Positions 4,317 to 28,217 of a DNA stretch of 42,317 nucleotides are shown here, one piece after another. Below the pieces are notes generated by a model. That model saw nothing but the letters and a program-made list of their open reading frames with translations, had not been told where the DNA came from and ran no database searches. Numbering within the stretch: the stretch's first letter is position 1; the number at the start of each line of letters is the position of its first letter. This DNA comes from a virus: the IMG/VR virus record IMGVR_UViG_3300017782_000046, positions 1-42,317 of that record. One strand, given 5' to 3'. A program made the position numbers and the translations under genes.

Positions 4317-4345
4317 ATTATATATTAGTTGTTAGTCTTTGTCAA
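4317..4345 (-). promoter_or_regulatory. sigma-70-type promoter for the Sm-like/ferredoxin/polymerase run
   Basis: TTGACA (4340-4345), a 17-base spacer, then TATAAT (4317-4322), all on the minus strand, a perfect consensus. The -35 lies inside the last codons of the ATP-grasp gene. The surrounding sequence is nearly identical to the gp45 promoter at 8429-8457: CTATTGACAAAGA and ATATATAATG are shared. This lets the polymerase segment be transcribed independently of the clamp-loader genes. Confidence 0.85.
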
Positions 4346-5825
4346 TAGGTGGTAATCGTTTTGATAAAACAAATGTTCTATTAGGATTAACAGACGCATT
4401 GAATAATCTGATTACTTCTCTATTTAGTAATACATCTGAACCAGACCTTGGTCGTTGGTCAAGTCCAAATTCTATATCAGGATATGTGAAACCGTTAAAG
4501 GTAAGTGGTAATTGAATTGTTGTTCTAGTTTCTGATGGTTCTTCACCTTCTGCATTAGCACGAAAGACTTTACTCTCCCCGTACTTCGGTGCTGAATATG
4601 TCTTACCATTATACTTCCAGGTTACCTTTTTACCTTCTACTTTAATATTTTCAGCGTGCATTGAACAAGCGTGAGCACCGTTACCAGTATCCATTTTTGC
4701 TCTCATCTTACCGATGTCGCCTACTTCTATTGTTTCTAACCAACCTACTTCTGAAATAGATTGTCTGTCCCAATTCTTTCTTTCTGATAACCATTTAATT
4801 AAGTTAGTTACCAGTTTATCTCCTTTGATTGCACCACTATTTTCTGGATCCGAATAGAAGTCTTTATAAACATATCCTTCGTATTCTGCACCAGTACCAG
4901 GTGAACCATTGACTTCTAATACATAAGGTTTTCCTTTGTGTATAATGTGGTCAACTCCACATAGATACGCCTTGGACGCCCTGCTGGCTCGTAGTATGAT
5001 GTCTATTTCCTCGTCTTTCAACTTATAAGGAACAGCGTCAGCACCTCTATGTGTATTAGTTCTAAAATCGTCTGAGCCTTGAATTCTTTTTGTACTTGCA
5101 AAGATTTTATTATCTACTACAAATGTTCTAATGTCAAAATCACTTGGCATAAATTCTTGTATCAATAGTTCAGCACCGTGTTTCCATAGTGCCTGAATAG
5201 TAGATACTAGTCCGTCATAACTATCTACCTTTACAACACCGATACCTTGTGTACCAGTTAATGACTTTAAGATTACAGGAAACTTATCTACACCACCAAT
5301 TAATTCTAATGCGTCATCTATATTTTTTTCGTTAGATATAAATGCTGTTTTAGGTGTTGGTATACCAAACTTCTCAAATAGTAAAGCAGAAGTAAGTTTG
5401 TTATTACAAGTTAACATTGCGTTTCTTGTATTACACATAAATGAACCAGAGTTTTGAAAAGCAGAAACGATTGATAAACCACTTTCATCTTCTACAGAAC
5501 CTGCTCTAGTAATACAAACGGTATCTTTACCTATAAATGTATATTCAGTATCTTTACCATCAAAATTATAAACGGTTAAAGTATTTTTTTCTTCGTCTTT
5601 ACCTGTGATAATAGCGTGTCTAGTTTCAATAACTATACACTTAATCTTTAATTTTTCGCAAGCGTCATTGATTAACTTAACCGTCAGTTCTTTACTTTCC
5701 TTACCACCAACTTTTCTCTTCTTCAAGTCAGGATTAGTTTTAGTAATTACTGCAATTGTGATTGGTTTGTTTTCTCTATCTAAAGTTTGTTCAGATAAGA
5801 AATCGGTAAAGTTTTGTACTTGCAT
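4332..5825 (-). CDS. ATP-grasp ligase (RimK-like) fused to a retropepsin-like protease domain
   Basis: A 497-residue two-domain protein. Residues about 140-345 look like a RimK-type ATP-grasp ligase: FPVILKSLTGTQGIGVVKV (nucleotide-binding loop, 191-197), ELLIQEFMPSDFDIRTFVV, and LEVNGSPGTGAEYEG (metal-binding end, 303-310). Residues about 360-490 resemble the RimB/PF05618 family, called 'ATP-dependent zinc protease' but related to retropepsins: GWLETIEVGDIGKMRAKMDTG with the aspartic DTG at 379-381, then HACSMHAENI and a distal SGSDVLLNREVI. RimK adds glutamates to ribosomal protein S6 and RimB homologues are thought to trim them, so the fusion could both add and remove amino-acid tags on a host protein; that is inference. 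It starts at a TAATG overlap with regA and has an AAGGT ribosome site. Confidence 0.82.
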   Translation of the reverse strand: MQVQNFTDFLSEQTLDRENKPITIAVITKTNPDLKKRKVGGKESKELTVKLINDACEKLKIKCIVIETRHAIITGKDEEKNTLTVYNFDGKDTEYTFIGKDTVCITRAGSVEDESGLSIVSAFQNSGSFMCNTRNAMLTCNNKLTSALLFEKFGIPTPKTAFISNEKNIDDALELIGGVDKFPVILKSLTGTQGIGVVKVDSYDGLVSTIQALWKHGAELLIQEFMPSDFDIRTFVVDNKIFASTKRIQGSDDFRTNTHRGADAVPYKLKDEEIDIILRASRASKAYLCGVDHIIHKGKPYVLEVNGSPGTGAEYEGYVYKDFYSDPENSGAIKGDKLVTNLIKWLSERKNWDRQSISEVGWLETIEVGDIGKMRAKMDTGNGAHACSMHAENIKVEGKKVTWKYNGKTYSAPKYGESKVFRANAEGEEPSETRTTIQLPLTFNGFTYPDIEFGLDQRPRSGSDVLLNREVIRLFNASVNPNRTFVLSKRLPPIDKD

Positions 5826-9130: not shown

Positions 9131-9170
9131 ATTAAGTAATATCCGAATCTAATTCTGCGACTTACTTAAT
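9131..9170 (-). repeat. 9-bp inverted repeat at the end of hsp20
   Basis: ATTAAGTAA (9131-9139) pairs with TTACTTAAT (9162-9170), the latter including the hsp20 stop codon, with a 22-base loop. It is AT-rich and not followed by a U-run on the minus strand; a weak 3'-end structure is possible. Confidence 0.4.
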
Positions 9171-9608
9171 TTTGATTGTTCTAGGTTTTTTACTATCTGG
9201 AACAATCTTCTCTAAACTGACTTTTAAAAGTCCGTCTTTGAGTTCAGCACCTTTGATTTCTACATCATCAGCGATTGTGAAAGACCTACTAAAATGTCTT
9301 TTCGCAATACCTTTGTGTAAAACTTCAGGTCCTTTTTTATCACTCTCTTCTTTATGTAAAGATTTGATAGATAAAACACTATCAGCATAATCAACAGAAA
9401 CATCTGATTTAGAATATCCTGCTAATGCTAATTCAATATCGTAAGTAAAGTCTCCAGTCTTTACGATATTATATGGTGGAAAGTTTGGGACTCTATTACC
9501 GAAGTCTGTAGTATCTAACATAGTTTCAAAACTATTAAATACATCATCAAACCCTACGGTCATAGGTCTTAAATTGTTAAAAAATGAAATTGCTCTGTGA
9601 TTGGTCAT
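9162..9608 (-). CDS. hsp20: small heat-shock protein Hsp20
   Basis: A 148-residue alpha-crystallin-domain chaperone of the IbpA type. The N-terminal MTNHRAISFFNNLRPMTVGFDDVFNSFE is followed by the core: NFPPYNIVKTGDFTYDIELALAGYSKSDVSVDYADSVLSIKS, then KGIAKRHFSRSFTIADDVEIKGAELKDGLLKVSLEKI, with the characteristic G-L-L-K-V-S strand and a C-terminal basic tail. It holds unfolding proteins in a refoldable state. Hsp20 is part of the common gene set of T4-like cyanophages and related marine phages. It has a strong AAGGAGG ribosome site and a combined early/late-type promoter upstream. Confidence 0.96.
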   Translation of the reverse strand: MTNHRAISFFNNLRPMTVGFDDVFNSFETMLDTTDFGNRVPNFPPYNIVKTGDFTYDIELALAGYSKSDVSVDYADSVLSIKSLHKEESDKKGPEVLHKGIAKRHFSRSFTIADDVEIKGAELKDGLLKVSLEKIVPDSKKPRTIKIK

Positions 9609-9672
9609 TATGAACCTCCTTATTAGTAAGCAAAGTTAATGTTAAGAGAACCCATTATGGCGTTCTCATAGT

Positions 9673-9704
9673 TATTTATATAATCATTATATCTCATTTG
9701 TCAA
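9673..9704 (-). promoter_or_regulatory. hybrid early/late promoter for hsp20
   Basis: A perfect T4-type late box TATAAATA (9673-9680) lies 65 bases before the ATG, and TTGACA (9699-9704) lies 18 bases further upstream, so the late box can also act as a sigma-70 -10 (TATAAA). Both early (host sigma-70) and late (gp55) reading are possible. Confidence 0.65.
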
Positions 9705-9724
9705 GTCTTTCAAATAAATTAAGT

Positions 9725-9906
9725 GGTGGTTTCTTTTAATTGTGTACCACCAAAACAATCAGCGCTTTAGGTTCAGAATTTAGAGAGCAGAACCAGAGGT
9801 AACTTAATACCTAACTTACTCTAGCGACACCGTATTTAATGTTCTATCTACATTGGGTAATTACGGCACCCTATATCCTCTAATAGGTCTTATGAATTGC
9901 CTATCA
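9725..9906 (-). ncRNA. candidate structured RNA between bS21 and Hsp20
   Basis: The 341 bases between bS21 (stop at 9950) and hsp20 (start at 9608) hold no convincing gene but a series of ordered inverted repeats. In minus-strand order: TGATAGG with CCTATTA (9900-9906/9881-9887, one G-U pair); CCGTA with TACGG (9862-9866/9830-9834) enclosing AATGT with ACATT (9850-9854/9838-9842); CGCT with AGCG (9823-9826/9763-9766) enclosing two hairpins, AGGTA/TACCT (9808-9812/9797-9801) and GGTTC/GAACC (9790-9794/9770-9774), which makes a three-way junction; and GGTGGT with ACCACC (9746-9751/9725-9730). It could be a riboswitch-like leader of hsp20, a bS21-binding RNA or a free small RNA. It does not form a tRNA cloverleaf. 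I match it to no known class. Confidence 0.45.
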
Positions 9907-9949
9907 GTATTATATATACACTCACAATCGGTGAGGAGGATAATTCCAT

Positions 9950-10159
9950 CTAAAAGCCTCTTTGTGCTTTTAATTTCTTTTGTTTCTTCTTCCAGGCAGC
10001 AGCCATTTCTTTATTCTTACGGATCCTTTTATCACTAGGTTTCTCGTAATATTGTCTTTGGCGTATCTCCTTGACTAGTCCTTCTTTAGCAACTTTTTTC
10101 TTAAGCACTCTCATTGCTTGTTCCAAGTTACCATTACGAACGGTTACAAGTATACTCAA
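9950..10159 (-). CDS. rpsU: ribosomal protein bS21
   Basis: A 69-residue homologue of the small-subunit protein bS21: SILVTVRNGNLEQAMRVLKKKVAKEGLVKEIRQRQYYEKPSDKRIRKNKEMAAAWKKKQKK. bS21 sits near the mRNA exit and anti-Shine-Dalgarno region, and phage-encoded copies, known from pelagic phages, probably replace the host protein on ribosomes to favour phage mRNAs. The start is TTG, placed nine bases after a full GGGAGG ribosome site; this site overlaps the end of the DUF3310 gene, so the two are coupled. The structured RNA follows directly downstream. Confidence 0.96.
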   Translation of the reverse strand: MSILVTVRNGNLEQAMRVLKKKVAKEGLVKEIRQRQYYEKPSDKRIRKNKEMAAAWKKKQKKLKAQRGF

Positions 10160-26936: not shown

Positions 26937-28004
26937 TTATACTAGTTTTTCTGCTATTTTAATCTCTTCATCACTTGCATAATCTCTATCCCATTTGTCT
27001 AAATGTTTTTTCATAAACTTATTAAACAATGGTGGTATTAACGCAATTGTGAAAAGTGTAAAGTAACCGACACCAGTATTAGGAGCACCAACATCATCAA
27101 GTTCCCAGAAGTGTGTTTCACCTCTATCGTGGTGGTCTGCTTGACGACCAATTTCTATAAAGAACCAACTTGTAAATAATGTTGAGTTATCCCAGTTATG
27201 GCGATAATCTATCGGTTGATTTTTTACTCTTATTAAACCGTAGTGTTCTAGGTAGTTCAATGCTTCTAACTCAAAGTTTGAGATAACCCACATTGTTGCC
27301 AATACAGCAATACCTGTCCAACCACCTGCTAAAAAGAATAAACTTACAATAGGTACAGACATAAGATATCCTCTTATCCATCTGTTATCAAAACTGATAA
27401 AAGATTTACCTACTCTACTTAATCTTGCTTTCTCCATTTCAAAAAGAAACTTTGATTGACCAAGATAAGACAATAGATAATGTCCGTATATTGTGCGACC
27501 ACGAGGTGCAGTCGCTGGGTCATCTTCACTTGCAAGTTCTAAATGATGATTATAACAATGAGCATAGCAAAAATGTGCTGACCCACTTAACGCCATCATC
27601 CATCTACTTACTACAAAAGACCAACCTTTTGTGTGCGATAGTTCGTGTCCATATATAATACCAATACCTAAAAAGATACCAGCAGATAATGTTGTACCAA
27701 CTAACTCTACGCCACTTACTCCATTAAAGATTTTGTAAGCAACAACTAATTGTAGGATTAAGAAAACAGGTAACATTAAATACATAACGCTGTTTTGCAA
27801 CCACGCAATACCTAATGTATCTCCATTCCCATCAACCCCAGCACCTTTAGTTTGTTTTGTGATTAATGTATCTATTATTATTCCAAGACCTAATAATGCA
27901 ACACCAGTCCACGCAAATAGACCACCTATGTGGATACCGTAAGCAGTTGTGATGATTAATATTGGTGCAATGAAATAACGAATATTTGTTAAGAGTTTTA
28001 ACAT
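26937..28004 (-). CDS. AlkB-like membrane di-iron oxygenase (alkane monooxygenase/fatty acid desaturase superfamily)
   Basis: A 355-residue integral membrane protein with about six hydrophobic segments (for example 8-48, 72-94, 104-118, 213-245). Histidine motifs match AlkB: HELSH (H120, H124), AHCYNHHLELASEDDPATAPRG (H149, H153, H154), NYLEHYGLIR (H254) and IGRQADHHDRGETHFW (H291, H292). In AlkB the last motif is RHSDHH; here the first of its three histidines is Gln288. AlkB hydroxylates the ends of alkanes or related lipids using electrons from rubredoxin or ferredoxin. A phage version may alter host membrane lipids. It has its own hybrid early/late promoter and lies between major capsid protein and a tail gene, so it is probably made late. 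Likely of host origin. Confidence 0.88.
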   Translation of the reverse strand: MLKLLTNIRYFIAPILIITTAYGIHIGGLFAWTGVALLGLGIIIDTLITKQTKGAGVDGNGDTLGIAWLQNSVMYLMLPVFLILQLVVAYKIFNGVSGVELVGTTLSAGIFLGIGIIYGHELSHTKGWSFVVSRWMMALSGSAHFCYAHCYNHHLELASEDDPATAPRGRTIYGHYLLSYLGQSKFLFEMEKARLSRVGKSFISFDNRWIRGYLMSVPIVSLFFLAGGWTGIAVLATMWVISNFELEALNYLEHYGLIRVKNQPIDYRHNWDNSTLFTSWFFIEIGRQADHHDRGETHFWELDDVGAPNTGVGYFTLFTIALIPPLFNKFMKKHLDKWDRDYASDEEIKIAEKLV

Positions 28005-28182: not shown

Positions 28183-28217
28183 CGTAAGATTGTCTACTAT
28201 ACAATCGTTATTTGCAA

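Follow-up and report, generated by a model that had tools for sequence, protein, structure and literature searches.

What is encoded in the long non-coding gap that separates a ribosomal protein gene from a small heat-shock gene in a marine phage, and why is it filled with ordered inverted repeats? The gap lies in a 42,317-nt stretch of DNA (positions 1 to 42,317 of IMG/VR virus record IMGVR_UViG_3300017782_000046; hereafter the window), which is a fragment of a T4-like marine phage with its genes on the minus strand. It is flanked by the following genes:

9950–10159, minus strand: rpsU, ribosomal protein bS21, the upstream neighbour (Pfam PF01165, E 1e-16)
9162–9608, minus strand: hsp20, small heat-shock protein (Pfam PF00011, E 5e-17)

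At 341 nt (9609–9949), this gap is the longest intergenic stretch of the window (the runner-up measures 213 nt), as a preliminary description made from the sequence alone had noted. That description also placed a highly structured, uncharacterised RNA at 9725–9906. The ordered inverted repeats are indeed present, and folding yielded an outer helix closing a junction, in keeping with the three-way junction it had proposed. The structure is real, but it extends from 9942 to 9724, and several of the repeats taken for hairpins are pseudoknot halves instead. The RNA is read from the minus (coding) strand, along which the gap runs from the rpsU stop through a junction domain, three pseudoknots and a second promoter into the hsp20 leader, and its functionally clearest element (9669–9603) falls outside the interval first described. 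With about even confidence, we interpret the gap as the long 5′ leader of an mRNA that the phage makes late and that continues into hsp20, the leader being composed of two functional parts. Part 1 (9942–9724) would be a new phage RNA element in which a conserved-loop hairpin, placed at the transcript's 5′ end or close to it, precedes a series of H-type pseudoknots, and part 2 (9669–9603) a ROSE-like thermometer that would hide the hsp20 ribosome-binding site until the RNA melts.

The first alternative to be weighed was that the ordered repeats merely reflect chance folding of AT-rich DNA. A comparison of folding energy with shuffled sequence, proposed along with the preliminary description, spoke for this alternative: the minimum free energy of 230 nt was no better than that of dinucleotide shuffles (z of –0.74 on the minus and –1.51 on the plus strand), and by that measure alone the claim of structure would fail. 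Since pseudoknots are invisible to this calculation, the whole-gap minimum free energy was set aside as uninformative. Instead, 80 hsp20 loci were fetched and their rpsU-hsp20 gaps compared side by side, yielding a signature pattern (TATATATA-N4-14-GGCNRYYCRTAAGNCC, which fixes the loop letters by construction) that was found a single time in the window but in none of 100 shuffles, and that matched at least 120 stretches of viral contigs. In a DNA similarity search, cultured phages matched solely at the promoter and hsp20-leader end of the gap, the remainder going unmatched because its helices drift.

As MAFFT misaligned the stems of the pseudoknots and of domain B, covariation was assessed by exchanging helix partners between relatives (5000 permutations) and by shuffling. 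Pairing was lost on partner exchange in every helix tested. Specifically, own partners outperformed swapped ones with z-scores, all inflated by the relatedness of the sequences, of 9.2 for the stem of hairpin A1, 10.6 for the outer helix P1, and 6.7 and 14.7 for the two stems of the main pseudoknot (D), with 0 of 5000 permutations as good in each case. Hairpin I of the hsp20 leader likewise paired best with its own partner (0/5000; overall z range 6.7 to 14.7). Moreover, a pseudoknot finder scored 57 of 74 representatives above all 20 of their dinucleotide shuffles, with 3.5 expected. Across the homologous gaps of more than 200 marine phage contigs, one architecture is kept while its helices covary. 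This comparative evidence overrides the energy result and confirms that the structure in the gap is real; chance folding, already contradicted by the covariation, by the absence of the signature from shuffles and by the conserved position across these contigs, retains next to no credibility.

The architecture of part 1 comprises an outer helix round a junction, the A1 hairpin and up to three H-type pseudoknots, all three of which occur in the window:

9874–9942, minus strand: junction domain as folded, with P1 (9942–9936 with 9880–9874) enclosing P1a (9935–9921) and A1
9882–9905, minus strand: hairpin A1 with loop GGC-AAUUCAUAA-G-A-CC, signature of the RNA family (signature match and stem covariation)
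9829–9871, minus strand: pseudoknot B, with stem 1 at 9871–9868/9858–9855 (GGGU/ACCC)
9867–9862/9834–9829, minus strand: stem 2 of pseudoknot B (GCCGUA/UACGGU)
9854–9850/9842–9838, minus strand: inner hairpin of pseudoknot B
9770–9823, minus strand: pseudoknot C, with stem 1 at 9823–9819/9785–9781 (UAGAG/CUCUA)
9794–9790/9774–9770, minus strand: stem 2 of pseudoknot C (GGUUC/GAACC)
9811–9798, minus strand: hairpin in loop 1 of pseudoknot C
9724–9759, minus strand: pseudoknot D, with stem 1 at 9759–9755/9743–9739 (AUUGU/ACAAU)
9752–9746/9730–9724, minus strand: stem 2 of pseudoknot D (UGGUGGU/ACCACCA)

Hairpin A1 is the most recognisable of these elements, its loop being near-invariant family-wide (GGC-NRYYCRUAAG-N-CC). 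A model (R2) scored 56.7 bits here in the window; over 563 kb, it detected a single copy per locus in 63 loci and nothing outside these positions. In HTVC008M, which was found independently, the loop is kept while the closing C-G has become U-A, and in Melnitz the stem above the loop is altered. Such a strongly kept loop may point to a specific partner. Covariation of the outer helix P1 was seen in the rpsU class, whereas the cobS class (both named after the gene upstream) lacks this helix. Pseudoknot D is present in nearly all relatives, in which 39 stem-1 and 50 stem-2 sequence pairs occur, and its U-rich loop 1 and A-rich loop 3 resemble those of triple-helix pseudoknots. Pseudoknots B and C occur in subsets of relatives, with variant pairs AGGG/CCCU, AGGU/ACCU, GCCAAC/GUUGGC and CCGAC/GUCGG for B, and GAUG/CAUC and GUUGU/ACAAC for C (the latter read by eye in few lineages).

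Several relatives carry further elements in this region. Directly after the first A1 hairpin, HTVC008M has a second A1-like one (L200, about 1411–1468; CUUGC-CUCUCGUAAAU-GCAAG), and similar paired hairpins occur in contigs L216, L229, L234 and L254. A conserved module (TTTTAGCATTTGCGCTTAGTTTCGCACCAC...CTAAAGCTGCGG), probably another structured RNA, follows A1 in only some relatives (L013, L053, L116, L175 and L201), and another recurring module (TTGGTCCATTGGCCTTCG...GGGTGAGGCCTACC...CCAATA) follows pseudoknot D in L214, L219, L242 and L304, so that RNA modules seem to have a hot spot in this gap. In Mosig EXVC030M (L201, 76–324), the annotated "hypothetical proteins" Mosig_00014 and Mosig_00015 fall within the structured RNA and are unlikely to be real genes.

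Part 1 did not reach the gathering score of any of 4227 Rfam models (Rfam 15), and relaxing the threshold to E 10 added no more than a chance snoRNA match on the opposite strand. Neither ARAGORN nor Rfam found a tRNA or tmRNA at the locus (a tRNA in L200 sits elsewhere), and no Rfam model for the glutamine (glnA) riboswitch matched there; these three identities were therefore rejected, and the earlier remark that the RNA fits no tRNA cloverleaf was borne out. With helices that covary by compensatory changes and no Rfam family to explain 9725–9906, the view of an uncharacterised, highly structured RNA is supported: part 1 is an undescribed RNA, strongly conserved and with strong covariation, that matches no Rfam family.

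Among known RNAs, the leader of T4 gene 32 mRNA likewise places an H-type pseudoknot at the 5′ end of an mRNA from a T4-like phage, but it precedes another gene, whereas part 1 has a conserved-loop 5′ hairpin, up to three pseudoknots and no known protein partner. Tandem pseudoknots are also found in tmRNA, and passages of PMC9004378 report that streamlined marine phages carry a glutamine riboswitch and a two-piece tmRNA, with Melnitz and Mosig, both members of the same phage group, having the two elsewhere in their genomes; in contrast to tmRNA, part 1 has no tRNA-like domain and no CCA. Passages of PMC9723584 show that phage genes for bS21 and Hsp20 were already known to lie close together, and the pseudoknot-rich RNA is not described in these passages or in those of PMC9004378. 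Its cultured carriers are HTVC008M, Mosig and Melnitz.

The remainder of the gap contains the putative promoters and the hsp20 leader:

9911–9918, minus strand: TATATATA box, probably a variant T4-type late promoter, relatives having the canonical TATAAATA at this place
9713–9686, minus strand: sigma-70-like TTGAAA-16-TATAAT, overlapping upstream of the second late promoter
9673–9680, minus strand: second late promoter TATAAATA, for hsp20 (sequence, consensus scan)
9603–9669, minus strand: ROSE-like thermometer over the hsp20 ribosome-binding site (Rfam RF02523, ROSE_3)
9667–9646, minus strand: thermometer hairpin I, which covaries
9637–9627 with 9622–9613, minus strand: thermometer pairing of UUUGCUU (within the former) with UAAGGAGGUU, covering the ribosome-binding site

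A UUGCUU strand opposite the ribosome-binding site is the hallmark of ROSE elements. In the window and nearly all relatives, a U(U/C)GCU strand faces the ribosome-binding site (UUUGCUU...AAGGAGG), in a 5′ UTR element that stands directly before the small heat-shock gene and ends over the hsp20 ATG. Rfam ROSE_3 scored 31.3 bits at 9669–9603 (E 9e-5 for 361 nt) and also matched the hsp20 start of Melnitz (34.1 bits) and L024 (31.2 bits), all below its gathering score of 43; since that score is a curation cut-off rather than a biological feature, the element is named ROSE-like. A phage model (R1) built from 36 leaders scored 57.4 bits as its sole match in the window and matched at the leader position in 51 of 55 hsp20 loci, many of which belong to its own building set. 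Outside this set, it matched Mosig, HTVC008M, Melnitz, HTVC103P, S-RIM2 and P-TIM40, more weakly HTVC115P, P-SSM3 and S-CRM01, and not Vibrio phage PWH3a-P1. The minimum free energy of the region was lower than that of shuffles (z –2.76). Predicted opening on heating was weak, ViennaRNA accessibility of GGAG rising only from 0.39 at 5 °C to 0.50 at 55 °C in a model that ignores the non-standard pairs of ROSE elements. Judged from its sequence, 9669–9603 is a probable RNA thermometer, and the earlier idea that the RNA senses stress thereby finds support for the hsp20 leader, though not for 9725–9906.

ROSE thermometers of small heat-shock genes (Rfam RF00435, RF01832 and RF02523; reviewed in PMC4166951) share with this element the place before an sHSP gene, the ordered hairpins and the UUGCU-type strand opposite the ribosome-binding site. 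The present element differs in its occurrence in phages, its T4-type late promoter, a score below the curated cut-off and, in this phage group, an unrelated pseudoknot RNA preceding it. In the lambda cIII RNA thermosensor, translation of a phage mRNA also depends on RNA structure and temperature (PMC4166951), but there two alternative folds give the opposite temperature response on another gene. No ROSE element in phages was found in the open-licence literature of PubMed Central, and a paper on marine-virus small heat-shock proteins makes no mention of thermometers or UTRs.

At codons 4–6 of hsp20 (window about 9597–9591), 80 of 91 phage genes carry A[AG]GCA, the complement of the UUGCUU strand, where 3.7 would be expected. 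Conserved Lys/Arg-Ala codons account for most of these matches, a few of which are out of frame, and an alternative pairing of the anti-ribosome-binding strand with codons 4–6 was rejected. Two Pelagibacterales (SAR11-labelled) host contigs, L211 and L212, carry the thermometer next to upstream genes that look cellular, while A1 and pseudoknot D are absent. Host hsp20 leaders with the same element suggest that gene and switch were captured together.

Shortly before A1, where the window has TATATATA, relatives from a second scan carry the canonical TATAAATA (among the matches listed), and the RNA keeps its own TATAAATA/TATATATA box there while the genes upstream differ. In the cobS class and in Melnitz, a TTGA box lies about 17 nt further upstream (TTGA at –23 in 10 of 17 of the cobS class). 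In the window, the transcript is predicted to start at about 9905, which suggests that A1 would form the 5′ end of a late transcript or lie close to it. The fit is loose, the base of the hairpin being no closer to this start than with shuffled stem lengths, and a hairpin starting exactly at the predicted start was therefore rejected. Moreover, P1 needs RNA from upstream of the predicted late start, so that either P1 forms in read-through transcripts only or the box is no promoter. In most genomes, the RNA and hsp20 are separated by a second late promoter, which in the window places TATAAATA at –10 (9680–9673) and would let hsp20 be made with the thermometer alone.

The pairing of P1 with sequence just past the rpsU stop, and hence in read-through RNA, fits an intergenic stabiliser or processing signal of an rpsU-hsp20 operon, one that would protect the 3′ end of the upstream mRNA or serve as an RNase III/E site, devoid of sensing or trans activity; structured ends are also common in phage operons. 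We regard this as improbable, given that the A1 loop is conserved far above the need of a plain stabiliser, that the RNA stays while the upstream gene changes, and that a promoter-like box stands directly before A1. A canonical intrinsic terminator after the cobS-like gene (10506–10479, minus strand; 11-pair stem, TTTTTT) implies that DUF3310-rpsU-RNA-hsp20 may be its own transcription unit.

The neighbourhood of the RNA was subsequently compared across phages. Among the matches listed by the first search, hsp20 was the next detected gene in all 163 uncut copies, and the upstream gene was rpsU in 134, cobS in 21 and unresolved in 8. A second scan, using the A1 loop without requiring the TATATATA box, listed 100 new loci, 88 of which had hsp20 downstream; 7 were chance matches at which all of these neighbour genes were missing, and 5 followed rpsU with hsp20 not found (one of the five being cut off). 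In at least four contigs without hsp20 (L231, L236, L245 and L263), none of which gave a convincing thermometer match, the RNA stands directly before a DUF3310-type gene, an arrangement read by ORF in L245 and L236. Upstream, the RNA is preceded by rpsU, cobS, a TIGR03299-type gene or a small protein gene, the last lying between rpsU and the RNA in many second-scan loci, as in HTVC008M. A stretch of a Porticoccaceae MAG (L213, NZEU01000035.1) is phage as well, with rpsU, the RNA and a ROSE-like hsp20 in phage order.

The varying upstream genes and the contigs without hsp20 indicate that the RNA is not an rpsU element and not exclusively an hsp20 one. An rpsU-linked hypothesis is thereby rejected, and bS21 binding, which the preliminary description had considered, is unlikely as a conserved role; a purely hsp20-specific leader is weakened. 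The main rival to the leader, also raised in the preliminary description and in our estimate possible but somewhat unlikely, is that part 1 stands alone as a late small RNA of about 100–230 nt that acts in trans, with its own promoter and its end at pseudoknot D, its proximity to hsp20 being operon geography. Such an RNA would agree with the late-type box, the single copy per locus, its retention in contigs lacking hsp20, the separate hsp20 promoter and the whole genes inserted before hsp20 in some genomes (an ORF of 323 aa in Mosig; also L006, L053 and L291). A T-run (≥6 T in 10) after pseudoknot D in 31 of 184 relatives also fits, but there is no consistent terminator: no intrinsic terminator was called at pseudoknot D of the window, and a terminator was rejected as a general explanation of this pseudoknot. 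Further points against a small RNA are that nearly all copies listed are followed by hsp20 as the next gene and that in compact classes the RNA directly adjoins the leader of the gene behind it.

For the 5′ leader, we counted the covariation in A1, P1 and the pseudoknots together with this downstream hsp20, the box kept before A1 under changing upstream genes, and the ROSE_3 and R1 matches at the hsp20 start. In the compact cobS class, the RNA leads straight into the thermometer with no space for a second promoter; with the RNA running directly into the thermometer or a DUF3310 start in compact genomes, the single assumption of a 5′ leader accounts for every arrangement. Against it stand the second promoter and the inserted genes, as if the RNA were a separate unit, as well as the mismatch of P1 with the predicted start, the loose start fit, the weak predicted heat opening and the low ROSE_3 score. 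In such a leader, part 1 would probably shield the 5′ end of the transcript, where hairpin and pseudoknots would slow decay, and/or bind a protein or other ligand controlling the downstream gene. We tentatively extend this to a new RNA class of abundant marine T4-like phages whose A1 loop and triple-helix-like pseudoknot may bind a specific partner (a phage or host protein, an RNA or a metabolite), as a late-infection switch or trans-acting RNA, placed before a thermometer so that chaperone output could integrate two signals.

Few viruses of the ocean are as abundant as the T4-like phages that infect SAR11 and related bacteria. If ROSE-like thermometers do act on phage hsp20 genes, including those of cyanophages, marine phages would use RNA to adjust how much chaperone they make to the temperature, which would bear on infection under warming.

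Elsewhere in the window, all on the minus strand, a strong hairpin with a T-run at 28194–28153 (AAAAGGCGATGTCAAAGTCGCCTTTTTT) is a likely terminator, a RimK-type ATP-grasp domain is fused to a weak Zn-protease-like domain at 4332–5825 (Pfam), and a fatty acid desaturase at 26937–28004 is an unusual gene amid structural phage genes.
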